From: Tubulanus polymorphus | Lineage: Eukaryota > Nemertea > Palaeonemertea > Tubulaniformes > Tubulanidae | Assembly (NCBI RefSeq): GCF_964204645.1 | Contig: NC_134035.1 | Span: 8,060,501 to 8,124,500, forward strand | DNA length: 64,000 nt | Direction: 5' to 3' | Part shown: in pieces, positions 18,783-58,500 of the stretch | How the letters are laid out: each line of letters opens with the position of its first letter | How positions within the stretch are numbered: position 1 is the stretch's first letter | Translations under genes and position numbers: made by a program | The notes under the pieces: generated by a model | Told to the model about the DNA's origin: nothing | What the model saw: the letters and a program-made list of their open reading frames with translations, nothing else | Databases searched by the model: none

Positions 18783-21700
18783 CTATTTTGCATTTTGCGA
18801 CGGCGGTTTCATATGAAACAGAGTGTAATCCAGTTCCTGACGTAGAACTCCGGTGAGAACAAACTCGGCGTTGTAAACAGCTGCAGGGGAAAAAAGAGAA
18901 TTGGATTATACTAATGACATACTGAGTTTAATAGTAGTCGATCCGTGTACACTGTAGATAATTGAAGAAGTCCACCTGATGATAGCTGTTAGTCGATAGC
19001 TGAAACGTGGTTTCGTTATTTCATATAGAATTCAAATTGTGGGACTTGGATTATTTACCGAGTTAATTGATCTCAAATCTCAATTTCTAACATCAAATTC
19101 TTTAACCCTTTCAGTGCTGGCTAATTAATACCCTAGTGCTGAAGATAATTTGAAAATTCTGAAAAATTCCACCCTAGTGTGTTGAATGACGGGAATAGCA
19201 CTGTAGTGCGTCTACACCCTGGTGCGGTATATCGTTAGTTACTAATATTTCATTATGTTTGACAGGTGCTGCCATCTTTCAAGAGAGATAATTAGTTATT
19301 ACTAATTAAATCAATACACCGCAGTGCGGTGTACTAGCAAAATCCATCACTAATTCGTACACCGCACTGCGGTGTAGACACACTGAAAGGGTTAAGGAAA
19401 CTTTCAGGGAGAAGTCACTTATTGGAGTCAATAGAGTCATCAATGTAATGATCATTTCACCTACAACGACTCAAGTGAGTTTGACTGTAATACCAATGGC
19501 CTATCTGTTTGTTTCAATGCTCTTCATATATGAAACATGAAATGGTTCCAACACTACCGAATGAGTTGACGTTAACCTCGAACACTTACGTAGTCTACGG
19601 TGGAACATATCGATCAGAAGTTGGCGATCGTTGTCACAACCGATTACAATAAACGCCGGAAAACCCTACAAAAAAACACCGAACACGCTACTATATGGTA
19701 TGATACAAATAACAATCAAAATATAAATTCTCGAGATATTGTCGTGTAAAACTTACTCTGGGAGTTCGCTGCATTGCGATCGCCCGTACAGACGGCCTAC
19801 GGTTGACGACCGTACCGCCGGCGCTGATTACGATATCGCGTATTAAAGGCTTCCCCGGATCGGTACTCGGCGTGATGTAGAACGTCATATCTTTGAAAAG
19901 CGGCCTCATTCGAGCTCGTCGCAACGATTCCGGGATGTCAATACTGTACATAGCCTCGGCTTTGTCGTCTCGTAATGTAAATGGCACCTCATCTGAATTG
20001 AATGAGAAAAATGTTCATTCAGTTGCGACAACCAACCGTGTTCATTTATGTTACCCAAGTAGTTTCAAGTTTAAGCGGGGAAGTAAATTGAACAACTTTA
20101 AGATCAGGGCTCGGTTTCATAGAGTATCAAAGTTATCCCTAGGGATAACTCCTCAGTCTGGGTAACAACCACCATAGTAACAATAAGAAACCATGGTTAT
20201 AACTGACGAATTTCAAAATTTTCCCAGGGGTATGACTGCCCCGATGAAAATATGTAAAATTCACCGATTGAGTTTTCTTCCGAGGCGTCTCCTTTATCTT
20301 AATCTAATACACATAAATTCACAAAATATTCCCAAGTTAACATGTTAACACACACCGATAAATTCGCCTTTTTCGGCACTTTTCTCAATCCACTCGGTGT
20401 TGACTATGTGTCGCACAACGCTGATCGCTGTCAGGAATTTACAAGTTCTCACCAGTTCATTCGCGACGAGATGCGTAGGGCATTTCGCTTTATTCGTAAT
20501 CGAACCACCGAGCTTCTCAACTTTCTGAAAGAACGAGCAATACGGATTAGCCAGTCCCTTTTATAGGAGTCATTCATTTTTTACGTAAGCATCCCTCACT
20601 GATGGAAATATGATGGCTTTGGAAATAACACTTTAACCGCCACCGAAGCCGTGGCTATTCATGATATATAGGACTGCATTTTCAAACTCAATGATAACTG
20701 ATGTCCAACTGCCTTCACTCTTTGTACAGCGCTTCAAGCCGTTTATAAACCTTTTCGATTGAACTCATTTAGCAAAACAGAAGATTCTTCTTGGTAGAGG
20801 ATTTTCTAGCGTCACAGAGATGAAATAATTGACTATTGAAAGGTAACGTTGATAATTCCTCTTCAGGAAGAGGAATTGTGGAAGCGCAATCGCAAAGGAC
20901 CTAAACATGTACAGATACAGATCATCGAAGATTGTTGTTACACCGCACTAACCTCCACAAGGTCTGATAACAGAGTTTTGTTGATACCGGTCATCAGTAT
21001 CAGCGGTTGATTTCCGTGCACTTCGTCTTGGCCTTCTTTGATGCATTTGTCAATGATCGAGTCGAGTTCACTTGTCGGAGATAACCTGATGAGCAGACAA
21101 TTCAAACAATTATAGTCATTCTCTCTTATCGATGGACAAAGTAAACAAAATTTTGACACATTTTCTGAGAGCTCAAACCTAGGAGCTGTGTTATTTGAAT
21201 GTACAATCAACTCTCGATAATCCAGTCCTATTTATTAATAGATAATCATATCATGAAACTTTTTAACTTATCCATAGAAAATTAGCAAGCCCAACTGGAG
21301 ACTACTGTACTAACTGACCACTTTCCACCCATTTACAAATCTCCCAAGTTTTCCCGGAATTTATTCATGTGATTACACAAAATTCCCTGGTGAATCAAGA
21401 GAAACTTCAAGGTTTTAAAATGTTACAATTCATTTTTCACTGAATACAGCTCAAGAAACACAGTCTATAGCATTATCTGAATTCCCTGGGTTTTCAAAGT
21501 TTTTGGTAAAAATTGTCAAATTCACCAAGTTTTCCCTGATTTTTTTCTTGATTTTTCCAATTCCCTGAGTTTATACCAGGTCAGAGGCCACCTTGGATTA
21601 ACCAGAGTTGACTGTAGAAGATTGCGCTTAACGTACTTGACTCGTTTTGCGGCTGGTTCATCTTCGAGTTGATCAGCATCTTTACGTTTGTTGGCAGCAG

Positions 21701-24700
21701 TTTGAGCAGTTTCAATACCGGCAGACGGATAAGACGTATTACTCGAACTCGACTTAAACTTCTGCAATATACAATATACACCTCATAACATATATCAGTA
21801 GTAAATTTACTACCAGTACATTAACTTGTACAGCTAAATATTTTTTAAAAGCTAAATTTTCGTTTCCACAGACAAGTGACGGTCTATAATTCAATTGAGA
21901 TAACCCCATGGTTTGGCGTCTCGAATCAATCCTACGATCCGTTTTAGAAAGATTTTCAAAATAAAATTTTTGAAAACGGCTCATCGAATTGAATTGGTTC
22001 CTACTCGCTAAGTTTTTATTCAACGCTACTGAAGTGATTTTATTGTACTCTAATATTTATGGAATATTCAGACAGAAAAAAGTTACCTTCCATGTATCCT
22101 TGCTGATTTTAAGTGGTTGCATCCAGCCTTCTATAAATGGACAAACACAAAATTGTTATCACTAGTAAAAATACATTGAGAGCGATAAAACATTTTGTAC
22201 ATAGCCCTATTTGATAATTGTGACGTACTTAGTAAATGATGAAGCCGACTGATATCCACTTGGAAATCGTCTTTCAGCGCGAACTGCTGATATTTCGGCG
22301 GTATCGGTAATTTCAACGCCTCCAGATGTCCCATTACGAGATCATTCAACCACTGTACGTTCAACACGGGTATTCTCTTATCGCGAGCTTTATCGTACTT
22401 CGAACCAGACGGCCTGATTTAGAAGGAAAAATGCTACACGTTGACGGATGTTTTGGTATTTCCAAAATCCTTAGCATCCTTAGCACATGCACACACATAT
22501 CAAAATACATAAGATCTGAATCTAACAGTAGTCAAATACAGCTAAACTTGCTTGATCTGGATGAGTTTGATTCAGATTTCACGTTGGTTTGAGTAAAACA
22601 GTAGACAAATGATGACTCGAAACTTCATTGTTACTCTAGTATTTTACCGATCATCAACTCTAATAGACTTTTGAGCAACTAGCACGTCCTGATCGAGGGT
22701 AATTACTTCTTAGGACATCACGCCTAACTGTTTTAAAAAGTTTTTATTTCTCTAATTCTCAATCGCAGTTGAAGGTCATCATTATGCTTTTTTTAAATCC
22801 ACTGGGACCCAGTTTCACAGTCGTGAGTTAGAGTTAACTCTGAGTTTAAGTTAGTTCATTTTCAATGAGTTAACCCAGAGTCAAATATTAACTCAGAACT
22901 GTGGAACTGGGCTCTGAACATCATTCAGAGAGCTAATTTACTTATCAAATTCAATCTAAATGGAAATACCAATCTTTATAACGCCAAATTCGTAATCATG
23001 CCTTGTTTTTTATTGGTCTCAATAGCGGCATTATAAAGGAGTTTCTTTATGAATGATAGAACTTACTTTTTACAAATAAGAGCTGAATTCGTGGCAGTCA
23101 TATAACTAGTATACCTAGCACCGATGCATGATATCATGTATTTCAGCTGAATGCGTTCGGTTTCACTGAATTTTGATATAGCTATAATCTACAAACAAAA
23201 ATCATACATCACAAGTTTTTACAATGAATAGGGAGTTGATGTCAGTTTTTATTTTAAAAATTTTACATACCTGACTAGAACAAGGTTTATTCTGACCGTA
23301 TATGGATGGAAAATGCAACACGTGCCACGGTGGTTTCATACATTTCTGCGTAAGACAAGCGTTCAACCAATGCGCAGTTACAACCCTTTTACCATCGTTT
23401 ACAGCCTGTAATCGACAGTAGATCATACGAATATCAATACTTCAGTCTTTTCAATTGACTACTGACCATTTTCCCGTAGTCCATGTAACAGGGATGATAC
23501 ATTAGTACTGGAATTGCAAACTTTAATGCGGGATATTGACAATGGAGGATCCGTATCGTGAGAAGATACTCTCTATAATTGTATTAAGTGAGCCTTGTAA
23601 TTGTCAGCACACATGTAATGTATATGGCGCGTTAAACAGTCAGGAGACTTTTCAAACAGTCACTACTTCCGTCTTAGGCTTACTGATCATATAATCAACA
23701 AGATGCCCCAATTTGCCAACTTTCTCAATTTTCAATGCCCCCTTGCCATTCAAGGCCTTTAAAAAATTCTCTTCTTTCACTGCTATTCTCTGTGTTAACA
23801 CTTTCAGTGCTGACTGATCAATACCCTATAGTGCTGGAGATAATTTGAAAATTTTGGAAAAATTCCGCCCTAGTGTGTTGCACAACGGGAATACCACTAT
23901 AATGCGTCTACACTGCGGTGAGGTGTATCGTTAGTTACTAGTATTTCACTATGTTTGACACGTGCTGCCATCTTTCAATAGAGATAAAAACTAATTACTA
24001 ATTACACCAATACACCGCAGTGCGGTGTACTAACAAAATCATCACCGATTCATATACCGCAATGCACTGTATACGTACTGAAAGGGTTAAATGCCCTTAC
24101 CCTAATGTACAGTTTTATCGCTAGAAAACAGAGGAAGCCGTGTTCATCAGAATTGTTTTCAAGCGTAATGCTTACTCTTAAACATCGAAGCAGACGGCAT
24201 CGCGTACTCACCAGTTGATAGATATCGCTTTTCTGATTCGCGCAGAGAAGATGAGTAATTCTGTTCGAGTAAGACGCATCGACTTGGCCACCGTACTGAT
24301 CGATCACGGTCTTCCATACGTCGATTTCGTTTTTCTTAACGATGTGTTGATAGTCGGTGATGTAGAATACACATCCAAGTAAACATAGTTCAGGAGGAAC
24401 TGTAAACAAACCAGTCAAATATCAGGGCCGTCGGAACAGGATCAGAAGCAGCCCCACTATTTTGTTTAACAAAATTTTTTTCATAAGCACGCTGTACCGC
24501 GTAGCAGCTCGTCGTCCTCTGTACTAGGTGGTTGGCTCACGACTTCTCATGCTTCGGTGAATGAGACCGTGAAATGGCCCCAAAACGCATCTCCGTCGAT
24601 TGTATTTTCAAAACTTTTCTAGGGCAGGGCCCCCAGCCCCCTTCAGAAATAAGCCTCGTCACTGAAAAATTCCTTCTGACGGCTCTGAATATATACAATC

Positions 24701-27700
24701 TTCAATCTGTCCTCATTTTGGATTTTCGCTGTAATGGGTTACCAGCAGACGACAGACTGGCATAACAGTTACACTCCGCTCATTTCATAAAATCAGCTCA
24801 TTTCATAAAATCAGCTCATTTCATAAAATCAGCTCATTTCAATGGATTTTGAGGCTCCCAAATTGAAACGTTGTCAAACATGTTATCAAATAGCCATAAG
24901 ATTGATTCACAATCAGTGTATGGTATAGTTTTATTGGAAATTGATTTAGTAATGAGAACAAGAAAATTAACTTTAATAAATTATTTGACGCCTGCGAAAA
25001 AATGTAGAATTTCTGGGATAAGCTAATGTGGAATTGTAAATTTGAAATCGAAGTTTTAAGAAATTTCGGGAATTATGAGATTTGGCGATTGGGTAGATGA
25101 TACAGTCTTCGACTGGTCTAATTAAAAAAAAAATTGTCAACTTGTGACTTCGATTCACTTTTGCCTCTAAGCTGGTCTGCAACTTCATTGCTTCCATGGT
25201 TGAAGAAAGAGCTCTTCTGATGTCTGCTTCATCATGACTTTGAGCATATCGTGTAGCCAGCCAGGAGCTGTTCCTGGGGCCCGGTCTGGCTGTCACTTGA
25301 TATCCTAGACTTGAGTCTGGGTTGAAGTAGACATTGTCATTTAAATAACTTATTCATGTTATTCTGTATGAATTACCCGTGTGTCTTGTATTTTCTTGTT
25401 TTAAAATTTGTAAATGTATTGATTTTTGGAATTTTATCCCAGAATTTCAATGTAATAAGGATCAATAAAGTGTTGAATTTAATTGTCACCTTCATGCAAT
25501 CAGTGGACGCGGAGCCGTATATGACAGCTATGCTATTATAAATTGCTAATCTCATGAAACCTGCATACGTCTAATATCGAACATATTTTCTAAAACATTT
25601 GAATATTGAAATTATTTTACACGTTTTTATATAGACCGCTTGTAGCCGCCGATGAAATTCACACCGGCCCAACTCAGATCGTAGATAGCTTCGTCATTCC
25701 ACCGGCATCCCCATGTCAGGGTCTGACTTTTATATCAGACTTCCAAATCGTGTATACATCCGCCATTTAACCGAATAATCCGATTTACTTATCATTTCTA
25801 TTTATCCCTGCCGCTCCTGATATAATCATACATCCTTTACTATTACAATACGTCTTCTCATGATATTCAATGCGATATAACATTTCGACGTTCAAATAGA
25901 GGTCATTATATAATCACAGGAAGCCATTCTACATCTTAATCAATAATATTTTGCCAAATAGCTTGTATGTGTACACATAAACCTGTGACGTTTTGCACAT
26001 CGATTTACGGTTGTCGTTTGTAAAATGACGCTGAATGGTTATAATTGTTTAGGTTTCATAATGGTAACGTTTTATAGGGCGTCAAAAAATTGATGTTACC
26101 ACTAGGGAAGCTGGCAGACGCTCGCAGAATCGTCGCTTACCACAGTAGTGGTACCGGTACTCTACGGTAATTGTGCGCTTGATTTGAAACTGAACTCTGA
26201 ATCGGCTCAAGATTATAATAATGAAAATCTTTTTCAGAGAGTTCAATGACTTATTTTTACAGCCGACAGAAGGCATAATTATATACACTAAAAGGGAGGA
26301 ATGTAACAATTTTTCTGAGTTTTTTTGTGAGTATGACGCTCAAGGCAATAACTACCTGCCATTAGTTTTTCGGAGGGGTTTTAAACACAAATTAGATTAA
26401 TTTGACATGAAAACCATAGTGTAATTGAAAATGAACTAAATATGAATCCAATTTTGAGTGTGTTTATGATATTTTTAGAGTAATTCAGCCATAAAAGACG
26501 TTGTAAGTGTGCCTTGGCGGTAGTCAAGCTTGGATGCTAGTACTGTCCAAGGGATAAAAATTGTTCATGATGGATTTTCAGAGAGAAACGAAATAAATCA
26601 GGGTAAATACACGCACCTGTATCACTGGGGTCGTGTCCGTAATAGGTAGGTGTCAATTCAATATTTTGTCCTTGATTGAGTTGTTGGCCAGCCATCAACT
26701 GTTGTTTTCTTTGGCTCAAAGAAGCCAACAGATCTTTCACCTAAACAAAAAAAATTTCCGCAACATAAGCAAGGAATTCAAAACAGCTTTAACAAATTTT
26801 TGTCTCTTGAGAGATTGATCCTGGAATGAGTGAAGTTCGACCATATTTCAAATCCCAATCATCTATATAACTAACCTAAGGCCCCGATCATTTCAGGGTT
26901 TAACCAAAATTAATGAACCTTTCGAATGTGCTCTTCCGGACAGAGGACCTGGCTAATTACTCTCCAATTGGTTTCTTATTTATTTGTAAGCTTCCGTCAA
27001 TTTAGTGACATCTGCCGGACAAAAACCTCACATAAATGGAGCCTTCAGTAAGCACGATCGAAAGGGACCTAGTTTGTTTGAGGAACTCAATTCATTCAGG
27101 CCATGTTACAATGCAATAATATCTATACCTTTTCAGTTCCCGATCGTATCGGAGACTTCGGTGGTTGTCCGCTGTTTATGATATTACGTAAAGCCGCTTT
27201 CGGAATTTCACTAATCGGCATCGGAATACCGGGAATCTGCATCATTGGTTTACTGGTCATATCCGTCATTCTCACCGCTCCGCCAGCCTGTGATGATATT
27301 AACAATCCTTTATTACCGGGGAAGGTATATAACAGACATACTACTATATCGCATCTATCCTGTAGTGCGATGTATCACCGATAGTTTGCTATATTGTATT
27401 TACCCCACAGTGCAGAGTACTAAAACGATGAACAACTATATCGCATGTCTACTGCATAGTATATAGCGGATGCACCTTTATGTCGAGCCATTCCTGTGGT
27501 GCAATGTATCATGGATGTTCTGTTATATTGTATTTACCCCACAGTGCAGTGCACTAAAACGATGAACCACTATATTGCATGTCTACTGCATAGTATATAG
27601 CGGATACACCTTTATATCGAGTCTATCCTGTGGTGCGATGTATCATGGATGTTCTGCTATATTGTATTTACCCTACAGTGCAGTTTACTAAAACAATGTA

Positions 27701-30583
27701 CCACTATATTGCATGTTCCCTGTAGTGTAGTATGTAATGGATGCACATAAATATTGCGTCTACCCTGCAGTACTGCGTGTAACGGACAAACAGCTAGATT
27801 GCTTTATATACACAGGTGTACTGCTATATGTCCACCCACGAATACGGTGCATCCTTAGTTACTATCATTTCCATGTTTCAAGAGGTGCTGCCATCTTTCA
27901 ATGGAGATTTAACTTATCTACGCGTAAAATTGGGCGAGTGGATTATACAATGCATAGGAAGATAGATAGTTAAAAGGGTTTAACAAACTCTGGAATGTTC
28001 TATCGAAGTAGATCTCTCGTACCTGCATTCTATTGCTGACCATTTTCGCCAACGCAACCTTAGCGCCGGCCTGCGGACTCTCCTCGATATCGAAGACACC
28101 AGATACATTAATAGAATCGTCGGTTATTTCCATAGGAACGGTTAATGATACGTCAGCTGCAGCCGGTGCGGGTGGTTTCGGTTTTTCGAGTATCAATAGT
28201 TTCGGATGGTATTCACGTTCGGATTTGCGTGTTTGCGATTTGACGCAGTCGTGCGCCCAATCTATCGTCACTATTCTTATTGCACTTTCTCCCAGTTTCA
28301 TAGCGTGATCGTACTTTGCCTGTGAAAGAGAAACAACAATTCTAACCGGAATATCATAGGTTTAAATCTTTAAGCAAACATTCTTAACCCTTTCAGTGTC
28401 GACTAATTAATACCATATAGTGCTGGAGATAATTTGAATTTTTTTTTAAAATTCCACCCTAGCGTGTTGAATAACGGGAAACCACTATAGTGCGTCTACA
28501 CCGTGGCGCAATGTATTGTTAGTTACTAGTATTTCACTATGTTTGACAGGTGCTGCCATTTTTCAAGAGAGATAATTACTAATTACATCAATACACCGCA
28601 GTGCGGTGTACAAGCAATATCTATCACTGATTTATACACTGCACTGCGGTGTAGACGCACTGAAAGGGTTAAAGCCCTACTTTGGACACAATTCACAAGA
28701 CATTTCGTACACTAATACCCTTACTTGAACGGATACGTTAAAGACATAGATCGAAACCGTTTGATTATTTGCAAATTAGCAATGTCAACATATTTTCCAG
28801 ACATTACCCTGATTTAGCTTCATTCAATTCCCTGATTTTTTTTAAGAAAAGAATATTCCCCGACTTCTGGATTAGTGGCGTAGTGGCGACTTTGCAAATG
28901 CTGCTAGAATCAATAAACCCAATGCTATTTGATATAAGTTGATCGAACCGGCTTCAATATTGATTCCGTTTGTATCTTACCCCGGAAGGTTTATTGCAGA
29001 ATAAATGAGTGACGGTCTTGTTGAATTTTCGCGTACAGACACCACCGTGATAGTTCACCATCGCCCACAATGTTTTATAATCAGCCAGCGCGATCTGTGA
29101 CGCACAAACGACCAGACCGGAGAACAGACGATACTTCTCTAAATTAAACGCTTCTAATCTGTATTCATCGAATCAAGGATTGAATAATTCGCAGGACTCT
29201 AAGGCTGGACCATGGGTCCAGTAGGATCAACTGAATACAGTACCTTTGAGCATAAAATTGTTAATTTAATGTAATAAAGATGAAATTCTTGGTGCACAAG
29301 TGTGGTAAGCACGTTGTACTTGATGATATTCGTGGTGATGGGTTTTTCCCATGAATCACTAGCACATGGCAGGTTCATTCTACACAAATTGAACTTGGAG
29401 GCTGAAGGGCTCTCCCAGTGATGTCATCATCAAGGAACTAGGTCACGAGTTGATTAGTAGAATGGGTAATAAATGCTCCATTGAAATTTTGCAAATTTTC
29501 TCCTAATACTTTCAAATGGCTTAGAGCTGATTGATGAAACTCTCCATACTGATTCTAACACCGATTTCCCTCCGAAAGACAAGATATCAGTCGTGTATAT
29601 CCATCGGTTACAATTAGTGCCACCAAGAGTTTACGGAAAGTTACTCTCAGAACCATTCTATAAGCATCCTAAAAACTCATACCTTGTTTCTCATTTCTGC
29701 TGTCTATATACCCTGTCTACATAATGAAACATGACATCATCTTTGTTAAGCCAAAATGTAAAATTTTGTTTAACGCCAACTACAACGCCAGTTTCGTTCA
29801 AAGTTCTTGGGCACATTGTTCAAAAACTCTATTCTTTGAACCATATGTTGATCATTTCTGTCGACTAAGAAGAAAATGATTACTGCACTGAAAAGTGATA
29901 TAAGATGAAATGGTGCACAATCAACGTATCATTTCCTTACTGTAAACTTACATAGGCCTATATAGATTAGACCTCACTAGTCACAACTCGGGCCTATTAA
30001 GTTCTTAATGAAATACTTTCAAAGGATACGGCAATATACAGCCACATTTCAATGACTGTGTCACCCACTTCGACTGAAAGAAAATATTAAGTATTAACTG
30101 TTGTACTGTGATGCTGTTTTTTTTTAACGGATGAAGGAATATTAAGTGTCTCCTTATTACCGATACGACGGGTAACTCAAATAAGTCAACGGCTTCTGCG
30201 TATTCGTCCTGTTCGATATCATCGCAGATGACATGCGTCACCATTTCTGTCAGGTAGCTATCTTTCGTCGCACCATTGTCGTTCAGCAATTCTTCAATCT
30301 GAAATTGCAGAAAAAAAAACACCGATTGATGCAATTCTGTTCCCTCATTGGAGAGCCTTAACAAATACAGCCCACGCAGAGTACGACACTTGAGTGTCTT
30401 AAAAAGGAGTACATGAAGTTTTGACAGCTTGTTTGTTTGTAATACTGCTGGCGCCATCTATCGAAAGCTTTGAGAATTAAAAATTCTGCGTTGACGTTGT
30501 ACACTTACTTTATCGTCGATATTTCCGATTAATAAATAATTAACGCCCTCAAAAACGGGTTTTGCAACCTCTGTCGATGTCAT
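18783..30583 (-). CDS. PAXIP1: PAX-interacting protein 1 (PTIP), six-BRCT protein
   Basis: Eighteen coding exons join in phase, 841 residues: 30583-30509, 30298-30161, 30073-30030, 29158-28981, 28319-28023, 27287-27129, 26740-26617, 24399-24212, 23405-23271, 23188-23067, 22413-22229, 22130-22087, 21761-21637, 21085-20953, 20524-20356, 19992-19757, 19665-19590, 18880-18783. BRCT1 and 2 are about 9-180 (VTHVICDD, WVTQSLKCGCILP, TVTHLFCN, TIDWAHDCV). A linker follows at 185-338. BRCT3 and 4 are about 343-540 (LLGCVFYITDY, ITHLLCANQ, VTAHWLNACL, VLNVQWLNDL). BRCT5 and 6 are about 625-841 (THLVANELVRTCKFLTAISV, FYITPS, YNAEFVLTGVL). PTIP recruits MLL3/4 H3K4 methyltransferase and acts with 53BP1 at DNA breaks. 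The long poly-Gln stretch of the vertebrate protein is absent (a short QQ-rich segment lies near 310-320), which explains the length. In exon 3 the donor was chosen at CC|GTATCC because it restores frame and aligns without a gap. Confidence 0.95.
18930..19060 (+). mobile_element. Penelope-like fragment with hammerhead core
   Basis: CTGATGA (18976-18982), a short stem II (AGCT / AGCT around GTTAGTCGAT) and GAAAC (19002-19006) form a hammerhead-type core on the plus strand, with CCAC before and GTGG after that could pair as stem I. No clear NUH triplet sits at the expected place, so activity is doubtful. It lies in the last PAXIP1 intron, antisense to the gene. Confidence 0.45.
19102..19395 (+). 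mobile_element. piggyBac-like MITE, copy 1
   Basis: This element is flanked by TTAA, with termini CCCTTTCAGTGC / GCACTGAAAGGG-like. It is about 290 bp and non-coding. It carries the family's two palindromes, ACACCGCAGTGCGGTGT and its G/C-centre variant, near the right end. It lies in the last PAXIP1 intron. It is the reference copy for the copies at 23795, 28384, 33777, 39190, 41104 and 56582. Confidence 0.85.
20356..20524 (-). other. PAXIP1: PAXIP1 exon 15 (BRCT5 core)
   Basis: It is listed separately because its upstream open frames are misleading. The exon reads KVEKLGGSITNKAKCPTHLV and continues to GEFIG, ending G|GTGTGT. It joins in phase to exon 16 at 19992. The THLVA and TAISVVRHIV blocks match the BRCT5 core of vertebrate PTIP almost residue by residue. 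Confidence 0.9.
21202..21616. mobile_element. 415-bp pogo/Tigger-like element
   Basis: The left end is TACAATCAACTCTCGATAAT. The right end, read on the other strand, is TACAGTCAACTCTGGTTAAT. These are inverted termini with TA borders of the pogo/Tigger type. The right end stops 20 bp from PAXIP1 exon 13, just past its donor (21631-21636). A hAT-like fragment (TTCCCTGAG...GGCCACC) is nested near its right end. Confidence 0.6.
22804..22914. mobile_element. Palindromic MITE of the GACCCAGTTYCACAGT family, copy 1
   Basis: The termini GGGACCCAGTTTCACAGT and CAGAACTGTGGAACTGGGCT are inverted repeats. The interior is a larger palindrome of GAGTTAACTC-type blocks. It is about 110 bp. Sister copies are at 32921-33035 and, more decayed, near 15900-16005, 20106-20190, 35455-35550 and 61180-61281. 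It is in a PAXIP1 intron. Confidence 0.7.
23795..24090 (+). mobile_element. piggyBac-like MITE, copy 2
   Basis: TTAA lies at both ends (23795-23798 and 24087-24090). The left terminus reads CACTTTCAGTGC (one change from the family) and the right CTGAAAGGG. The internal palindrome ACACCGCAGTGCGGTGT is intact, and the second copy is decayed. It lies in the PAXIP1 intron between exons 9 and 8. Confidence 0.85.
24779..24842. repeat. Short tandem repeat, about 18-bp unit
   Basis: The unit GCTCATTTCATAAAATCA recurs three times, followed by a partial fourth (GCTCATTTCA). It is in the PAXIP1 intron between exons 8 and 7. No function is suggested. Confidence 0.8.
27325..27965. repeat. Tandemly amplified derivative of the piggyBac-like MITE
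   Basis: A unit of about 134 bp (marked by TTGCATGT... at 27575 and 27709 and TCGCATGT at 27441) repeats about three times with partial units at the sides. Each unit carries decayed forms of the MITE palindrome (CCCCACAGTGCAGTGCACT and similar). The block ends in a clear MITE core (GTGCTGCCATCTTTCAATGG at about 27886-27905) and a decayed terminus near 27970-27982. It starts about 35 bp from the acceptor of PAXIP1 exon 6. Confidence 0.65.
28384..28672 (+). mobile_element. piggyBac-like MITE, copy 3
   Basis: TTAA lies at 28384-28387 and 28669-28672. The termini are CCCTTTCAGTG and CACTGAAAGGG. Both internal palindromes are present, one with minor decay. It lies in the PAXIP1 intron between exons 5 and 4, about 65 bp from exon 5. 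Confidence 0.88.
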
Positions 30584-32397: not shown

Positions 32398-35300
32398 ATG
32401 AGCACTCTACCCGCGTCCGGTGGTCCGCCACCGGCGGGTAAGAGAAAAGAGATCTATAAATACGAGGCGCCGTGGACGGTATACAGTATGAACTGGAGCG
32501 TACGGCCGGATAAACGATTCAGACTCGCTCTCGGTAGCTTCGTCGAGGAGTATAATAATCGGGTACGCCTCGCCTAATCCTACACCTAATGTCTATTTAT
32601 TTTTTTCGCCTGACATCGTTTTCTTTCAGGATATTTCACATCGTTTTTAGCGACTCTACTGAATGCTACTCTCCTGATTTGTGCTTAGTTTTCACAAAAA
32701 ATGTCAGTGTACTGCGTTGAAAAGTACTAACTTTTGAATTAACTGACATGTCATCCCAAATTAATGCGTCACGCGAATTGGCGCGATGCTAAATGTCGAT
32801 TAGTTAAAAACCAAGAACAATCTGGATAATAAATAGAGAATGGAATTTTTCACATTTTCTCTAGCAAAATACTCGGAAATTGTCGGCAATGAGAGGATTT
32901 ATTGAAGATGTCGAGATGTTCAGGGACCCAGTTCCAGAGTTCTGAGTTGAATTTGACTCTAGAGTTAAAACGTTGAAAATGAACTGATTTTAACTCAGAG
33001 TTAACTCTAACTCACAACTGTGGAACTGGCTCCTGATCTGTAATTCATCGAGATGTTATTGATTATTGCAGGTTCAGATAGTGTCGTTGGATGAAGAGAC
33101 GTCTGAGTTCACCGGTCGCAGTACGTTCGACCACCCGTATCCAACTACAAAAATAATGTGGATACCTGATAGTGTATGTTGAATTATTGTTTTCTTATTT
33201 TTAACATAACTTACGAGACGAGTAGTACTGTATAGGTTAACTATATATTTGACGCACGAGGTTTCGCTTCTAATGAATGAATAAATAGTTACCCTATACA
33301 GTACTACTCGTCTCGTTACTTATTTTAAACCTGGTTAACACGGCTACTTTACAAATATTTTTAACATATTCACCTTTATCCACCATTTTGCAAAAGAAAT
33401 GTATGATGGTGTGTAAGAAAGACTGGTCCCATTCCCATTTTCGATAATTGAAAAAATCACGCTTGAAATACTTCTTGACTAAAATGTAGGAATTTTGAAT
33501 TCATGTGATTGTTGGAGCATCGTTCTTAAATCATATACACGTGTACAACGTATATGCAAAATTTGACTAAATTACTCCTTCGCCCATGAATCCGAACCCT
33601 AGTCGTAACTTAACTTACCAACGAATAATTATTGTCTTCTTTTTTACAGAAAGGAGTTTTCCCAGATTTAGTGGCTACGAGTGGAGATTATCTACGCGTA
33701 TGGAGAGTCGGTGATACGGAAACTAGACTCGAGTGTCTTTTGAACAACGTACGTAGTACTTAACCGTCTTTAGTTATTAACCCTTTCAGTGTGTCTACAC
33801 CGCAGTGTGGTGTACGAATCAGTGATGGATTTTGCTAGTACACCGCACTGCGGTGTATTGATTTAATTAGTAATTACTAATTATCTCTATTGAAAGATGG
33901 CAGCACCTGGCAAACAAAGTGAAATATTAGGAACTAACGATACACCGCGCCGCTGTGTAGAGGCACTATAGTGGTATTCCCGTTATTCAACACACTAGGG
34001 TGGAATTTTTCAGAATTATCAAATTATCTTCAGCACTATAGGGTAGTAATTAGCCAGCTAGGAAAGGGTTAATCTATTGTTAGGTGATCTTTATTTAGTA
34101 ACCTTGTCTTTGTTAATGCGAGGCTTCAATCATCACCAGCTCATGGTTTGTGAAGATATGTCCACACACTTGCCGATAAGGACTATTTCTATTTACAGGG
34201 TTCTCTAATCAATGAGAAATGGGGTACAGCAGTGAACTGAATCTATTCTAAGGCCTTAAATAGTGTTGAATTTTGTGGGTGGCTAGTTAACTGACAGAAG
34301 CAGTCCTTCGGAAAGTAGGCCATAATACGAAGAAGTGACTTCGAGCCCGGACTCACTTGGGCCATATCATCCAAACAATTCGGAATCAAGCGGAATATTC
34401 GGAATCAAGCCCACAGACTGTAGTATTGGGTATTTGTGTTGTTGTTGTTATTTCGAGCACACACACAATTCAATCTCTATAAACCACTATAGCATGACCT
34501 ATATAGAAAACACCAGTTGAAAATCGCATCATCACCCGCCAGCAGTGGTGCGGTGCGTTAGTGCGCGCGTTATTTATGAATTCATTAATGAAGGGAATAA
34601 TAATATCTTTGTCTGCGAAAAAACGTTTTGTCTGAATAGTTAACCGAATAGAACTCTAGTTGCCGGGGGATGGGAACATCGGCTAACTAATACTGGTAGC
34701 TTTAACGGGTAATTTCTATATCGAAATAGTTTTGTTAAAAAAAGTTGGCTTGCATCGGATCTCGCGGGACCGATGAATTCCCTCCGAGGTCGGCGCAAAA
34801 TCCGGGAGCAGGGATAGGTTGATATCTCGATGAATTGAAGAGGCGAATTTTAAGGTTTAAACCGGTGATCTACATACCTGATCATACTCCGATGAACCCG
34901 GGTATAAAGGCCAGCCGAGGAAGAGTTCAGCAATCACAGAATTCCCTGTCATGTATGCCAAATCTGACAACTGTAGGTGCTGTGAATTAGTAATCACTTT
35001 TCGGAGGTTGGCAGCCCCGGGCATTTCTATTTGTATCGATTCGGTATTTAATTTCTTTGTAAGCTACAACTCTATCATTGAAATCATTGAATAGCAGCAA
35101 TGAATTTTGATGTAATTTCTGTGTTTTTTCCTGCTCTTTTAGAATAAAAATTCGGATTTCTGCGCTCCGCTGACGTCATTCGATTGGAACGAAGTCGATC
35201 CTAATTTACTGGGCACGTCGAGTATCGATACGACGTGTACTATATGGGGTCTCGAGGTAAGTGTCGTTGAACTATTAAACAAACGTATTTCAGCTACAAT

Positions 35301-38960: not shown

Positions 38961-39189
38961 CATGAATACAAGTGACCGCTAGTGACACGAGTTCGTGTAT
39001 TCTACATTCTCCTGGTTACCGATCAGAAAATACGGGGGTTGAATTTCGCAAGATCGACACCATCGAGTTTAACACCTCTCGTTAACTGTTCGTCGTGTTA
39101 TAACACGATTTTGGTGTTGTATAAAAGTGGAGCGCAGATTTGCTCGTCGATTTGAAAATTGAATCTTTTAATAACGAATTTCAGAAGAT

Positions 39190-39483
39190 TTAACCCTTTC
39201 AGTGCTGACTAATCAATACCCTATAGTGTTGGAGATAATTTGAAAATTTTAAGAAATTCCACCCTAGTCTGTTGAATAACGGGAATACTGCTATAGTGCG
39301 TCTACATCGCGGCGCAGTGTATCGTTAGTATCTAGTATTTCACTATGTTTGACAGTTGCTGCCATTTTTCAAGAGGGATAATTACTAATTATTAATTACA
39401 TCAATACACCACAGTGCGGTGTACTAGCAAAATCTATCACTGATTTACACCGCACTGCGGTGTAGATGCACTGAAAGGGTTAA
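39190..39483 (+). mobile_element. piggyBac-like MITE, copy 5
   Basis: TTAA lies at 39190-39193 and 39480-39483, with termini CCCTTTCAGTGCTGAC and CACTGAAAGGG. One palindrome has a single change and the other is intact. It is 230 bp after the DCAF7 stop, within the likely 3' UTR. Confidence 0.88.
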
Positions 39484-39503
39484 ACCGTCGGACTGGTTTC
39501 TTG

Positions 39504-41103: not shown

Positions 41104-41384
41104 TTAACCCTTTCAATGCTGACTAATCAATACCCTAAAGTGCTGGAGATAATTTGAAAATTTAAAAAAATTCCACCCTAGTGTGTTGAACAACGGGAAT
41201 ACAGTGTAGGGTGCAGTGTATCGTTAGTTACTAATATTTCACTATGTCTGACAGATGCTGCCATCTTTCAACAGAGATAATAACTAAATACCAATTCCAC
41301 CAATACACCGCAGTGCGGTGTACTAGCAAAATCCATCACTGATTCATACACCGCACTGCAGTGTAGACGCACTGAAAGGGTTAA
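41104..41384 (+). mobile_element. piggyBac-like MITE, copy 6
   Basis: TTAA lies at 41104-41107 and 41381-41384. The left terminus CCCTTTCAATGC has one change. One intact palindrome (ACACCGCAGTGCGGTGT) is present. A middle segment is about 15 bp shorter than in the other copies. Confidence 0.86.
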
Positions 41385-42678: not shown

Positions 42679-42731
42679 GTTTAATGCAATCCTGTGAATC
42701 TAACTGTTAGATTCACAGGATTGCATTAAAC
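42679..42731. repeat. Perfect 53-nt hairpin (26-bp arms, 1-nt loop)
   Basis: 42679-42704 (GTTTAATGCAATCCTGTGAA...) is the exact reverse complement of 42706-42731 around a single T. It lies about 120 bp beyond the likely MYG1 poly(A) signal. No terminal elements or coding frame explain it. Confidence 0.9.
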
Positions 42732-42847
42732 AGTAATATAGAAATTCCAAAAATCAATATGCATTTTCATCCTGACTTGTAGCATTGTCAGCCTGTAACC
42801 ACTTCACCATGAATTCCAAAATATTCTGCGATTAAAATTAAAATTCT

Positions 42848-42853
42848 TTTATT
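42848..42853 (-). terminator. Polyadenylation signal of MYG1
   Basis: AATAAA on the minus strand (TTTATT) lies about 130 bp after the MYG1 stop in AT-rich DNA. Confidence 0.55.
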
Positions 42854-42981
42854 ATCCTTGTAAAATGCAATATATTCCACCGCGATGCAATTATCGCTGA
42901 AGATCTTAAAAGACCACGACTCTGGTCAAGATGTAAGCATAATAGAAAGATTCTAGTAGATATGTAGTGACTGTCGTCAGT

Positions 42982-49531: not shown

Positions 49532-52500
49532 ATGCAGTCAAACTACCCGGTCACGTATACAAACTCTGAAGGGATGAAATGGGCGATGCAACAAACTACG
49601 ATTACATCTTTCAAAGCCGATAAAGCCCACAACCCGCACCCACCGTTTGCCGCTAAATATGGCCGAAAGATTCGTCCTACTTCAGGTTAGTCGATCAAGC
49701 TGTTCCTGTTGTCTTAGAAGATACTCAAAGTTGTGCCCCATTTTTATTTAAAAGTACTTCTTCATACAGGGTGGGATTTTGTTGAAAAACCATCTAAAAT
49801 AGCTAATTTGGCATTGGCATTTAATTTCTTTGATGAAGACTGCGTCGAAATTCGTCGGCAGGAAGACTTAAGACTCTGTTTCTGTTTCTGTTTCATGTTG
49901 TGTAGCTCCTGCAGCAGGTCGCTCGGAACCGTGGCATCAAGTTAACTATAACGCTCCTCAACCAAGAAAACGCTGTCATATTTCATTAAACCATCAAAAT
50001 CTTGAGTCTAAAGTCAGCAGGCACGCTCCATATGCCGGTATGTACTTTTGTTTTTTCCACAAGATGCACTTAATTGTGCTTTAATACCATCTGACATGTT
50101 TAATCCAAGATTCAGTTGCTCAAATATTGGTAAACCCGGTAAAAGTATTGGGCGTATGTTTATGTCAAATATGGTCATTCTTTTAGCATTTTGGACGAAT
50201 ATTTAGTCTACATGTTCATCACCACCCATCGTGTTATACACAGAGTGCTAGATGTAAAATTCATTTCTGAATTTGTCAGTTATTTCCGCTGGTAAACTTC
50301 GAAATCTATAAATATGTATATATTTTCAGCTCGTAAATACGACTCCGCTGTATTTACGTCGAACGTCGCGCGACCGATGTCTTCTCTACCCGATTATAAT
50401 CCACTTCACGATCCACATTTACAAGATTATTACGAGAAAAGATTCGCGCGAGCGTTATTATCGGCGCAGCAGGTTAGTCAGTGTTTCATTGCATCATCCC
50501 TAGCATTTTAACAGGGTGGCCACTCATATGGAATTCAGGGAAATCAGGGAAAAATCAGGGAATTTGATTTTCACCTAAAAAGTCATGGAATAGTCAGAGA
50601 ATTTTATGAAGAAGGTCAAAATCATGGAAAAGTCAGGGAAAATGGTTTTTATGCACGTCAAAAATACATTCCTTTTCTAAAAATTCGAAATGAAATATAC
50701 CGTAGTTGAGACAACTTTGGTCATGGAATTTTGGTAAATGTTCAAGGAAAAGTCATGGAAAAGCCAGGGAAAAACAATCTCAGATAAAAGTGGCTTCCCT
50801 GTTAAAGGTAACCGGTATTATATCCTATTCAGGGACGGATCTAGGAAAATTGAAAGGGGGGTCAGGAATGAAGGAAAAGGCGTTCTTATGAAGAAGGCAA
50901 CCAGTAGTCAATAAGTAGTTTCAATAGTTATAAGGTGCTTGTATGTATTTCAGAAGCAGACGCTTCGTAGACGGGCATCGTCAATTATATCAGCAGCAGG
51001 CGGTGCTGACGCCGGAAAGAAAGGCAAACAGAAAATTGCGTTGTACAAAGTCGCGGTGACCACCGGCGACCGAAAAGCTGCCGGAACTGACGCCCGGGTA
51101 TTCATCCAGTTGAAAGGCACGAAAAATCGCATGCCGAAAATACGCCTGTTCAAAAAGACGACCGCCAGTAAAGACCCGCGCAAAGATCCGTTTAAATTCG
51201 CGCGTGGTACGACTCATATATTCAAAGTAAAAGCGAACGAACTAGGTGAACTGAAATCATGTGTTATTGAGGTGAGTTAAGAGTAAAAATATGAATGTAC
51301 ATTATTTAGTGTACATTCACCCCCACACCACTCCTAGTAACGAGGAGTGGTGTGGTGTGAGTGGTCATAGCAAAAATTGGCCACTTCTGCCCTTGTACGT
51401 AATGCTTTAAATTGTGTACTGGGGGTTTGAAAATCAGCAAATATTTACAAACATAATCTATGAGCGATCTTTTGCCTAACTGCTTTCCGTTGAAGAACAA
51501 GTCTGAACTTTAGCCGGATTGATGACTCCTGACTGCAGTTTAGATGTAGAGATATAGGCTTGGGTCAATTATAATATCAATTTGCAAGTGTCAAATATAA
51601 TCGTAAATAGTTATCTAAAACTGCGCTGTGATGGTGTTACATTTTTCAGCACGACGGCCTGGAGAAAAAGCACAGCTGGTTTCTAGAAAGCGTTGAAGTT
51701 GTTAACGTAACAACAGGCACGTCGTGGATGTTCCTTTGTCAACAGTGGTTGTCCTTACACGAGGCCGACTGCCAACTTTCTCGGGAACTTTTCGCTAAAA
51801 AGTCAATCAAAACAGGTTTGCATCCGTTGACACCATCAGGTTTTGGCCTTATTGTAAATACAATAAATTTTCCATTTTGAATATAGTAAATAGTGGGTCG
51901 ATCTTGATGAAACGTGGGTACAATGTTATTATGGGTTCTATTTGTGCAGTGCAATGAATGGGCTCAGTGCACCACCTAGCGGCAGAACTAGGCCTTAAAA
52001 CCCCCGTTTTTCAGCGGCATGACCTTGAAGATGATCTCATAACTTAGGAACGGGGTCGAAATTCATAATGTTGTCTCGACAAAATTTTGCTATTGGGCCT
52101 AGATACAACATAGGGCCTATCCAAAATGCAATAAGAACTAACGCATCAGAGTTTGAGTTTGTGCCCGACAACCATTGTCGCTTGTTTGTTCTGTTAAATG
52201 AAAGTATTTGGAAATTCGGCATGATTTTGTCTGTTTGACCGGGAAATTTTCATTCAATCTCCATTGATTGTAGAGTATGAAGTGACCGTCGTTACGGGCG
52301 ATGGTATCGGAGCGGGCACCGACGCGAACGTCTTTTTATCGATTTTCGGTAAAAGCGGCGTCCTGTCGAAGGTTCATCTGAAAACGGCCGCGAGAAAACC
52401 TTTCCAGCGTAGTCAAAGCGATATATTCTCGTTGAAAGGAAACTGCCTCGGCCCTTTGCACAAAATCAGGTATGTACTTAAAGTTTTAGAATGTCCAAAA

Positions 52501-55500
52501 AGTTTTTTCGATTTATCAAGAACTCTGAAAACCATTTCATTATTGTACCGGTACCTTGACTTGAAGAAATTTGAAAAAACTGGAAAATTATCTGAAAAAA
52601 TGATGAATTATCAAGGTTCATTATGATGCCATGCTTCTTAATGCCACTGCTCACATAACGGCAACATTTTTAAGTCAACAAATTCGCTTGACAGTCCTAC
52701 TTAAATTCAATGAAAATACAATTCTTTATTCGCTATTTGTTATAACGCCATGTTTTCATTGGTCCTAACAGTACATTATAAAGGACTTTTACTGTATTTT
52801 TTCATCGAAAAAGCTGATTGTATGGATGTGAAAACTACATTCAGCTCATCGATCTGACCATTGATGCTTTTATGTTTTCAACACATCAATTATCAATGAT
52901 ATTTCTCTGCTATTCAGAATTCAGCATGATAATACCGGAATCGGACCCGGTTGGTTTCTCGATCGCGTCGTCATCACCGATCTTAAACACCCGAAATGGA
53001 AGTATTTCTTCCCGTGTAATCAGTGGCTGTCGCGTACGGAAGGCGATCGCGCCATTAGCCGCGATTTGATCGGTTCGCAAGATCCGCTGGCTTCGCGAAG
53101 AGGTATGTGCTCGTACTCGTCTAATAACTTCTTTAATACAACATCTGTTTACGCAATGTACGTTCTTTGAAAGGATCTGTTATCACATATGAATGACACA
53201 TGTATCATATAGCTGACATCTTTTCTGAAAAGGTTTATAAGTAATTATGAACATTTTCTTATCTTGCACTCAATTTTGGATTCCATAAACAATTTGGACT
53301 GTCTATCATACGATTGTAGAAAAATCCCACGAAGAAAAAAATAATAGAATAGTAATGATTAGTCGCAATTCTCTACTATCAGGCATTTTCAAAACTTTTT
53401 GACTGCATGTTCACTCTCAATACAAGGGTGGATCTAGGATTCTTTGAAGGGGTGGACCTGAAGCAGCCGTTGCACCCTATATGGAACCGTATTTCCAGTA
53501 TATATGCTGACCCCTTAGGGGTACTTTATTTAAAAAGGGCAAATTTAGCTATAATCATGAAAATCACGAGGGCTAAAAGCATGAAACATTGGTGGGGTTT
53601 CTGGCGGCCCTGTAACAGAAAGTTTAGGATAGAAAGGGGCTTTTCTGGCCTTTATGAGGACCCATTTGGATTTATATTTTATCTTTCTCTAGACTTTTTG
53701 GTGGGCACAGTAAATCCGCTCTTGACCCTTTTAGTTTTCCTTTGAAATTGTGGGTTTTCTTGATAAATTCAAACTATGGCAATGCTTTTTAATACACATA
53801 CAAATTTCCACTCTACACTTCTGTAATATTTCTGCTTTGTGTCACTTTGCGTCAGGCATTTTGCAAATTCATGCTCATATATTTTTCATCTTATTTTATC
53901 GCTCACTCAGGTGCTGGTAAGTAGACTATTTTGTATACGATCATGTGTTAATCTGTTTTGTTCTGTGTTGACGACCTTTATGAACCATTAAGCACCCAGG
54001 GGTGAATCCAGGCTACAAGAAATCACTTGCTATCAAAAACTGTAAAAAGATGCCCAGCCACATAGTTTTGTACTCACCCCTGGTATACTTTGGTATCGGG
54101 TGCATGTAATTAATTAACGATTGAATGTTGATGAGGACCCCGTCGTGCCACCAACTATCCGGCCAGACATTGTGCATAACGATAGGACAATTTTAAATTT
54201 AGTTTCACTTTCAATAAACTTTCATCTAGACTTTTTAAAGGGGGGTCAGACAGCGGTATGTCATACATTGCATCGTTGCCGCAAGCGTAAACCTTAAATG
54301 ACGCAGCTGACTGCGGTGTCCTCATTGCTTATCAAAATTCTTTTTGAAATGACGTGTAATGCTGGTTTAGTGCATGTTGCCGCTTAAATCAATTGTGTTG
54401 CTGATATCTATTTAATGTTAATTATCTATCCCGCATGGAATAGAAAGTTATGACCAACTTCTCATCCTTAGCCGTGTGTCGAGCTTGGTCCTAAAATCTA
54501 TTATCTTTATAGAATTGTCAGATTTAGTTCCGTTTCGTCCATATTGAACTAATACATCGATATATTTTACAATGTAGCCAGCAAATACATGGTGACAGTG
54601 TACACCGGAACTGTACGAGGGGCTGGCACTGACGCCAATGTCATTTTACAAATGTTCGGCTCACTCGGCGACTCCGGAGAAATTAAACTCAACAACAGCA
54701 AAAATAATTTCGAGAAAGGACAGTAAGTTTATCGAAAATTTAACTGATATTCTATTCATTCACACAATCAATCCACAATCAATCCATCAATCCTCCCACG
54801 TTGAGATTCGAACATCTGGTTATGCGGGGTTGCCGCTGACCTGGAAAACTCAGGGAATCAGAGAAATCTAGAAAGTAGTCCTGGAAAACTCGCGGAATTT
54901 GAAACATTTTGTTAAAAAAAACCTATCCAAGGGAATTTCGATATGTTAATTGACCACGTGTTTCTTAATCAATATGTGATTCATAAGAATTGATTTTAAA
55001 CCGAAAAATTGCCCGGATTCACTCTGGGAATTTTGTGATGTAACGTGAAAATGTCAGAGAAAACTCGAATAGGTGTCCACCCTGCTACGGTACAAATCTC
55101 TTCTATCTACGGTACGAAACCTCACCGTGCTAAAATCTCAGAATTTGTATGATATTTTCTTGCCTGTGAGCTTTCTCAAATGAAGACCAATTTCTGATTC
55201 ACTGCCATCCAGTTAGCTACAAAAGGTGTTTGTTACATGGCGATGTCTTACCATGTCAACAGGATAAATCCCAGCAATGAGCTGATTTTTTAAATTTTTG
55301 CAAATGGAAAACGTTTTTTTCTGAAGCGCATGTAATGAGTAACTTGTATTTATAGGAAAGATGAGTTCACAGTGTCGTGTCCTCACATCGGAAAACTTGA
55401 TCGCATTCGTATCGGTCATGACAACAAAGGACCAGCGCCAGGCTGGTTTTTGGATAAAGTAAGTTCTTTCATTCCTGACCAATCAAACCCGCATACCAGC

Positions 55501-58500
55501 GCATTATAGGGTTGAAACATTGATAAAACGTGAGATTTGAATAATTGCCCTGTTCTCGCTCAAATTTTAACTCAATTTATTCATGTAGATTATCGTCGAC
55601 GATATGGAAATGAGTAAAGTGTACGAATTTCCTTGTAATCGTTGGTTTTCGCGTACAGAAGACGATGGCCGCATACAGCGAGATCTGATTCCGGGTGTCG
55701 GCACTGATGATGCTCCTGCAGGTAATGATAACATAGTATGATACTATAGTATATACTACATGTAGTAGCGGAAATATGGGAAATATTTGTAATGTCTACA
55801 TTTGAGCCGATTAAATGCGTTTTCAATCGATCAGCATTCGTTAAATCTGGATTCAGATGAATTTTTTTGCCTACACTAGACGTCAAATTACCAACTAGAC
55901 TAGCGTACACTGGCATGCAAGTCTATTATCATTTGAATATCTTGACGAGCCTGTATTTATTGTTGCGATCTACTCTAAAAGAATCAAGATTAAACAAATG
56001 TGGATTCATTGATTCGTGTAGACAGTGCTCAAGTAATTGTTTTCCAAACTCTAGTATAGTCATAGGTCCCGATACACTTGACAAATTATTTAGTCTGTAT
56101 CTGTTTGGATCTGATAGTGATCCTATCAATGAGCTGCGATGGCTTCGGGAACAAACAAATTTACGATCGTTTGATACTGGAGTATATGTTTGCAACGAAA
56201 TACAGATATGAATGTATGTACACTTCACGTGTGTTTCATTGCAGGTGTGCCGTATCGAATCACCGTGACGACCGGTGATAAACCTCTCGCCGGTACGTCC
56301 GCTCAGGTTTTCATTATCATGTACGGCGGAAAATCCGGCGAAGAAACGAGCGGAAAAATTTGGCTCGATACCGGGAAATTCGAGCGAGGAAAAACGGACA
56401 TATTCAACGTCGAAGTTGCTAAAGTGCTGAGTCCTTTGTCGAGAATCGATATGGGGCACGATAACTCTGGCCCGGGAGCCGGCTGGTTTTTAGAAAGTGT
56501 AAGTTTTAAACATATTGCATTCGATTATTTGAGATTTCAATGTCGGGTTCGGAGGCAAAATCTACGAGTCATACAAAATGTTTAGCCCTTTCAGTGGGTC
56601 TACACCACAGTGCGGTGTATGAATCGGTGATGGATTTTGCGAGTACACCGCACTGCGGTGTATTGATTTAAGTAGTTATTAGTAATTATCTCTCTTGAAA
56701 AATGGCAGCACCTGTCAAACATTGTGAAATACTAGTAACTAACGATACACCGCGCCATTCCCTTTATTCAACACACTAGGGTGGAATTTCTAAAAAATTT
56801 CAAATTATCTCCAGCACTATAGGCTATTGATTAGTCAGCACTGAAAGGGTTAAGGGCAAGAAAAAAAGAGAGCCAGTGAAAATGTGAAATGATTGAAAAA
56901 TAATGCAATCTAGGGCCAATTACAGCTGTTATGAAATTTATGAGTTTCCAAAATCAAGCCCTTTTTCAAATTTTTCTCTACGAAATGGTATCTTATTTCT
57001 GAGTAGAAATTCATTGTTTTAACATAATTTTGTGGAAAATTTGTATTTCTATAAAATTGTACCCTTCATGAATAAGAGGCAATCGAAATTTTAAGGCTCG
57101 TAACACCCCCTTGATTTGAACTCGTTGTTTTACATTCTGCATGTTATACATGCAGGTTGTCGTGAAATGTGCGAGTATCGGAATGGAACAAACATTCGAT
57201 TGCCACAAATGGTTATCGTTAGATAATGACGACGGCTTGATCGAACGAACTCTGTACGAAACTAAATCCTTACGTAAAACTGGAAAGAAAGGTACGTTTT
57301 ACCTCCTTATTTAGGTTTTAGCTAAATCACTGTCATTCCACCACCAGTGAATAGCCAAATTTCTGCATGAGTCGTATTGAATATTTTGGACTAGCTTCTA
57401 GACTTGCAATGTTGAATTTATTGCCTAAGTCGGATTTTCACATAATTCAGACAGAAATCCCTTTTGAAGAACAGAATTAAGCAGACTGCTGTGTTTGGTT
57501 CTGTTTTAAAATTGAGGCGATTCGATGACTATTGATTTCAATTGAATTGATTAATCAGACAGCTGCTTTTTGTTTTGAGCCGCTATACACATCGTTCATT
57601 TTCTAAGTTGCCACTTTTCTGTTCGATTGATAGCTACGACTTGGTTCGCTTGGGTCGTCACGTCGGACGTAAGAAGCGCCGGAACCGACGCGAACGTGTC
57701 GATCGTTTTATACGGCGACAAAGGAAAGTCCGATGTGATTCCGATCACCAGTAAGGGCGACGGTTTCGAACGCGGGCAGACGGATAAGGTCAAGGTCGAA
57801 TCGAGCGAAGTAGGAATTCCGTACAAACTGCGCGTACAACATGATAACAGTGGCCAGTACGCCGGATGGCATCTTGATAAGGTGAGTGTTTTCAGTCGGG
57901 TTGTAGAGCAAGACCCACAGTTGATAATTTAACAATTTTGAACAGAGATTTTAGTTTCTCTAATGCTGAGAAGATTCGTGAAATGATAGTACGATATAAT
58001 GGTTAGATTCGTAGACCGGGTGTAGAATGAATATGAGATGAGTAGTACTGTATAGGTTAACTAGTTTATTTTAACGCACGGGCTTTTGCTACTAATGTAT
58101 TGTAGCTTCATCTGGTAAATGAGTGATGAAGCTGCTATACATTACTAGTAATAGCAAACGTTTGTGTATCAAATAAAATAGTTAACCGTTAAAGTAAACT
58201 ATTCTTCTCGTATTTATTCTGATGATGAAGTTTAGTCAAAACTTTGAAACTGTCAGAAAGAATTGTTAAATCATCAAATGTTGGTTTTGCTCATTAACTC
58301 AGAAATACAGAGATTAATATCAGTTGTGTTGTATAGTATTGATTTCGATGTTGTAGGGGTCTTTACAGGCGTTTAATCTTTGTAGCTGAATTTGATTTTT
58401 CCTTCGTGTTTTTCTGTTCATATTTCAGCCTACTACTAATCTGAAAAAATGTGCAATAATGAATGTTCACACATTTGCAGATTGAGTTGGAGAATATGAG

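Follow-up and report, generated by a model that had tools for sequence, protein, structure and literature searches.

The window, a stretch of 64,000 nucleotides from the nemertean Tubulanus polymorphus (NC_134035.1, positions 8,060,501 to 8,124,500), contains seven elements which, judged by their sequence, very probably form a single family of non-autonomous piggyBac MITEs mobilised in trans by a transposase of the piggyBat type; the palindromes near their ends would be the sites to which the CRD of that transposase binds. All seven were located where the original prediction had placed them. Each is 272-296 bp long, counting the TTAA at both ends, and they have TTAA borders and termini in common (Table 1). 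We define the left end (LE) as the palindromic end. It lies at the right in five copies and at the left in two, both orientations thus being represented as claimed. Copy 1 (19102) scores 93.5% against the consensus described below; the tips of three copies (23795, 33777 and 56582) are damaged, and in copy 2 (23795) the outer palindrome, P1, is heavily degraded.

Table 1. Features of the window, numbered from its first nucleotide; P1 to P3 are the palindromes described in the text.
Feature	Position	Length (bp)	Strand	P1	P2	P3	Remarks
MITE copy 1	19102-19395	294	-	19359-19375	19316-19332	19214-19230 (degenerate)	LE at right
MITE copy 2	23795-24090	296	-	24054-24070	24012-24028	23910-23926	right tip mutated (CACTTT)
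MITE copy 3	28384-28672	289	-	28636-28652	28593-28609	28498-28514 (degenerate)	
MITE copy 4	33777-34072	296	+	33797-33813	33840-33856	33942-33958	LE at left; right tip mutated (CCTAG)
MITE copy 5	39190-39483	294	-	39447-39463	39406-39422	39304-39320 (degenerate)	
MITE copy 6	41104-41384	281	-	41348-41364	41305-41321	41203-41219 (degenerate)	
MITE copy 7	56582-56853	272	+	56602-56618	56645-56661	interrupted by 24-bp deletion after 56756	left TTAA mutated to TTAG
Degraded relative	27325-27975		.				134-bp tandem array, 2.7 copies
Tandem array	5050-5541						78-bp unit, 6.5 copies, 97% matches, both strands open
BRCT-like peptides	20941-28361		-				
Multi-PLAT (LOXHD1-like) gene exons	50915-63734		+				

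Besides the seven copies, the window holds a degraded relative whose array of palindrome-like ACAGTGCAGTG units is followed by a fragment similar to the MITE body (about 27830-27970); it is an old relative with expanded internal repeats. Copies 2 and 3 sit among peptides that, judged by eye, resemble the BRCT exons of a PTIP/PAXIP1-like protein; two reading frames of this region gave no Pfam matches. Copy 7 starts ~70 bp beyond the end of a PLAT match and probably lies in an intron of the multi-PLAT gene.

A consensus was built, without regard to the palindromes, from a sample of 88 right tips on contig C1 and the start of C2, in 78 of which the left tip lay within reach. Ten more copies were added to the sample later, and the tree contains 92 copies. 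The consensus is 296 bp long including both TTAA, which is also the modal length of the 78 sampled complete copies, and the median divergence from it is 5.6%. An exact left-end TTAA was present in 66 of the 78 complete copies and the others carried one or two changes in it; the right TTAA belonged to the search pattern, and duplication of TTAA was inferred from the flanks. The TIRs start CCY(T), with the tip CCCTTTCAGTG at both ends of the MITE. Two palindromes, P1 (TACACCGCAGTGCGGTGTA, consensus bp 16-34) and P2 (TACACCGCACTGCGGTGTA, bp 59-77), occupy the left end; P1 is the reverse complement of P2 and their starts are 43 bp apart. The predicted pair is therefore present, but its unit, TACACCGCA-S-TGCGGTGTA, measures 19 bp where 17 had been given, and a third palindrome, less perfect and towards the opposite end, had been overlooked. 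This degenerate P3 (TACACCGCGCCGCGGTGTA) lies 102 bp further in (95 bp in copy 28384), at bp 110-128 from the right tip. In the window, 15 palindrome matches with up to three mismatches were found against 0.04 expected in shuffles, and in the genome 1,599 exact palindromes were found against none for a reversed control pattern. Consequently, chance is excluded as their origin.

The genome (268 Mb, 77 contigs) contains 1,312 exact right tips, or ~4.9 per Mb, and 2,947 exact 15-bp tips in all. Since the right tip is exact in only four of the seven window copies, we consider ~2,000 copies, extrapolated from counts of exact patterns, to be a fair estimate for the family. The copies are clumped, with a variance/mean ratio per megabase of 2.5 on C1. 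The high density claimed for the window holds for this genome but is not unique to it: at one place on C1, four exact right tips also lie within ~40 kb, the same number as in the window. Every window copy is nearer to some C1 copy than to any other window copy. The seven are thus separate insertions, and local duplication as the source of the cluster is ruled out.

We searched the genome for an autonomous piggyBac element with the same ends. Among 120 DDE_Tnp_1_7 matches, one family, represented on C4 and C6, has a right tip like that of the MITE. The C4 element (C4:17823597-17827834, 4,238 bp) has TTAA at both ends, and its left end, starting TTAACCCTTTCAGTGCGTCTACACCGCAGCGCGGTGTA...GTACACCGCGACACGGTGTA, lies far upstream, apparently on the far side of an intron. 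From the LE tip through P2, the MITE consensus matches it at 72 of 81 positions (89%, E 2e-26, blastn), an alignment that covers both palindromes, and the right tips agree at 41 of 53 (77%, blastn). The second copy, on C6, is ~98% identical to C4 over the first 3.6 kb with the same left end, and its right end is also the same (95%) after an inserted tandem repeat. The attribution to piggyBac and the expected autonomous element with the same termini and palindromes are borne out by these two copies. The C4 protein matches DDE_Tnp_1_7 (E 3e-59) and the zinc finger zf-Tnp_2 (E 4.5e-6); among solved structures it is nearest to piggyBat (9c0f, E 1.9e-31) and next to piggyBac (6x67, 7e-20), and its closest relatives elsewhere in this genome are 46-49% identical. 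No intact transposase was seen for the C4 family, because the C4 reading frame contains an in-frame stop.

The C4 family carries tandem left-end palindromes 43 bp apart and none on the right end: no P1-like palindrome was present in 300 bp of the autonomous right end, at either C4 or C6. The C4 element differs from the MITE by ~11% over the left end and in the centre of P2, and P3 is absent from it; it may be a close relative of the MITE and not its direct parent. Apart from the first 81 bp and the tips, the MITE body and C4 gave no alignment, and derivation of the inner arm of the MITE from the autonomous 5' region was rejected, the alignment being no better than shuffles (p 0.74). Three further readings were discarded. 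A copy on C10, considered as a closer parent, has a broken, truncated left end and no right tip in the stretch examined; L005 was dropped as the partner because the palindromes near its transposase belong to a neighbouring MITE copy; and ATGGCAGCACCTGTC... in the MITE body was dropped as a transposase frame start, the autonomous frame beginning elsewhere (MAAHRPK...).

The same arrangement of palindromes recurs in other piggyBac families of this genome. A palindrome with at least 7 of 8 arm matches starts at bp 17 in 14 of 29 TIR-like TTAA sites upstream of transposases, compared with 2 of 329 other TTAA sites. Among 18 family representatives, one of which stands for the C4 family, P2 duplicates the P1 of the same family at a distance of 41-45 bp (35 in one); families were counted by their end sequences and not from a tree, and some, L052 and L057 for example, may be related. 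Their palindromes differ (CCGGTATGACATACCGG, CCCGACTATAGTCGGG, TTCGACTATAGTCGAA, CTCGCAATTTTGCGAG and others), giving 17 distinct half-sites among the 18 representatives. L006, L010, L013, L020, L032, L033, L044, L051-L053, L058 and L063 are examples with a palindrome of their own at about bp 17-33 and a second one 41-45 bp further in. The 9 bp before each palindrome also repeat (116 of 171 matches; null mean 45, null maximum 64), clearly in other families but weakly in the MITE/C4 family, where 4 of 9 positions before P2 agree.

Several of these ~18 families have a readable CRD beside the palindrome, and the CRDs align on six invariant Cys/His columns. The transposase frame is open in some families, L010-L012 and L022 for example. 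A profile of 17 CRDs, with that of the C4 family first, matches residues 538-578 of 9c0f (E 6e-11), and the piggyBac CRD was not among its matches. On this sequence comparison, the C4-family CRD is of the piggyBat type, and the classical piggyBac type, a T. ni-type CRD with a single palindrome per end, does not describe the C4 family. Three families with a shorter CRD (L031, L034 and L061) have P1 and lack P2, and L031 has a second palindrome at bp 133 of its right end; we take the shorter CRD as a marker of a second end type only as a lead.

This geometry has precedents in characterized piggyBac systems. In piggyBac of Trichoplusia ni, two CRDs dimerise on a palindrome at left-end bp 17-33 (PMC7351741; PDB 6x67/6x68). 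That element resembles the MITE in its TTAA target, its CCC tip, the position of the left-end palindrome and the presence of another palindrome further in on the right end; it differs in its CRD type, in having one palindrome per end and in a right-end spacer of 31 bp as opposed to ~94 bp here. A closer likeness is that to piggyBat of Myotis lucifugus (PDB 9c0f), which has the same CRD sequence type as the C4 family, left-end units of core motif and palindrome ~44 bp apart and, like the autonomous elements here, no CRD site on the right end. In its transpososome the first unit carries an outer dimer and the second an inner dimer that is catalytically silent (PMC11707139, PMC13405395). These CRD dimers occupy P1LE and P2LE, and we infer binding at the corresponding positions, P1 and P2, of the MITE. 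Unlike the MITE, piggyBat has three left-end units, with palindromes unrelated in sequence to those described here; the MITE for its part has the extra palindrome near the right end and a weak repeated flank motif. Subterminal inverted repeats are known in several piggyBac-like elements (PMC12324416). In humans, gel shift and ChIP experiments have shown that PGBD3 binds to a 16-bp palindrome in MER85 MITEs (PMC3459987). MER85 is likewise a short TTAA MITE with a palindrome 3 bp inside the 5' TIR, and its PGBD3 parent carries further palindromes, one of them 114 bp from the 3' TIR (PMC3459987); MER85 differs in having a single palindrome (GTTCCAtTAtTGGAAC), unrelated in sequence to that of Tubulanus, where two lie 43 bp apart on the left end and a third near the right end. 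The CMITE elements of Acropora are also TTAA MITEs related to piggyBac, but they are ~100 bp long, their internal region, of obscure origin, is more conserved than the TIRs, and no palindromes are described in them (PMC2872659).

The reading of the palindromes as predicted transposase-binding sites has strong support from their position, from their pairing with a CRD of the piggyBat type and from the use of the same two positions in other families. TACACCGCASTGCGGTGTA would then be the putative binding sequence of the C4-family CRD, and mobilisation in trans by a C4-family transposase could proceed as follows. The transposase core would recognise the tip CCCTTTCAGTG; if binding resembles that in the piggyBat structure, P1 would hold the dimer that catalyses the reactions at the tip, and P2 another dimer that helps to draw the two ends together. 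P3 would provide the MITE with a potential right-end CRD site that its autonomous relative lacks.

The origin of P3 bears on this last step. The P3 block matches the inverted C4 LE at 27 of 28 positions (E 1e-8, blastn), so the MITE carries a relocated block of the left end, spanning about bp 8-36 and containing the palindrome, at ~94 bp inside the right-end TIR. Formation of P3 by a deletion between P1 and P2 was rejected, being hinted at by the flanks only and unsupported past the 28-bp block. As an extension of the transposase-binding reading, and not an alternative to it, P3 might be a working right-end CRD site that lets the MITE outperform its parent as a substrate. The presence of this block where two autonomous right ends lack it agrees with such a role, as do the right-end sites of PGBD3 (114 bp from the 3' TIR; PMC3459987) and L031 (bp 133) and the increase in activity caused by extra binding sites on piggyBac ends (PMC7351741). 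However, P3 is not conserved, its rate of change relative to the body being 1.0 in non-CpG columns and 2.0 in all columns, and no right-end site was found in those other autonomous families for which both ends were located and the left end has two sites. We therefore regard a working P3 as rather unlikely. It is just as doubtful that its relocation improved the MITE as a substrate, leaving it to outnumber its parent ~2,000 to 3, with families insulated from each other by their own palindrome and CRD.

The window copies had suggested palindromes strongly conserved within a drifting body. Across the genome this contrast is much weaker. P1+P2 nevertheless did not evolve at the rate of the body: in non-CpG columns they changed at 0.51 of the body rate (0.39-0.67), a figure that, like the others given here, depends on which body columns are used and on subfamily structure. 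In CpG columns the ratio was 0.81 (0.63-1.07), the palindrome CpGs decaying, and in all columns 0.75. The claim of conservation is thus upheld in modest form for P1+P2 and fails for P3. These values could also be explained if the palindromes had no present role and merely appeared conserved in young copies with a recent common source. The median divergence of just 5.6%, the decay of the P1+P2 CpGs at 0.81 of the body CpG rate and a number of terminal-branch changes in P1+P2 only slightly below that expected from the body (76 against ~96) are what such an explanation predicts. Changes confined to one or two copies occur as often in P1 (1.67 per column) as in the body (1.59). Variants common to at least three copies, however, number 0.13 per column in P1 against 0.46 in the body, and in the 92-copy tree internal-branch changes per non-CpG column rise from 0.09 in the TIR through 0.20 in P1, 0.40 in P2 and 0.55 in P3 to 0.72 in the body, the ratio of P1+P2 to the body being about 0.4. 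By column permutation the reduction on internal branches is significant for P1 (p 0.032), P1+P2 (p 0.016) and TIR+P1+P2 (p 0.00085), and P2 alone shows no significant constraint (p 0.19). This reduction, and a geometry common to families with different sequences, make the lack of any role improbable, although this explanation does hold after insertion: the palindrome of an inserted copy is under little or no selection. With moderate confidence, the rate pattern fits a site that is required for jumping and not afterwards.

The original prediction had left open whether a transposase or a host factor binds the palindrome. A host-factor site (for example, a RUNX-like inverted pair) carried for transcription or chromatin reasons is most improbable: each arm does hold TGCGGT, decaying to TGTGGT, both forms of the known RUNX core YGYGGT, and some of the ~2,000 dispersed copies lie among gene exons, but the palindrome stands at a fixed distance from the tip, also in the autonomous relative, and a single factor would not explain unrelated palindromes at the same places in other piggyBac families. 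Through their RUNX cores, the dispersed palindromes might still act as accidental host sites, also after CpG decay. What favours transposase binding is that ~18 other families each have a palindrome of their own at these two positions; constancy of place combined with variation in sequence argues for a site that coevolves with the protein of its family.

As a MITE, the Tubulanus family is a further example of the kind typified by MER85 and is ordinary for its class. In the limited literature searched we found no match for many families of one genome having different palindromes at the same two positions. These ~18 families, with ~17 half-sites at the same positions, constitute a natural data set on how a transposase distinguishes its own ends. 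The choice of palindrome by the CRD and the avoidance of cross-mobilisation between families thereby become directly testable, and the paired ends and CRDs are ready for use in orthogonal transposon tools.
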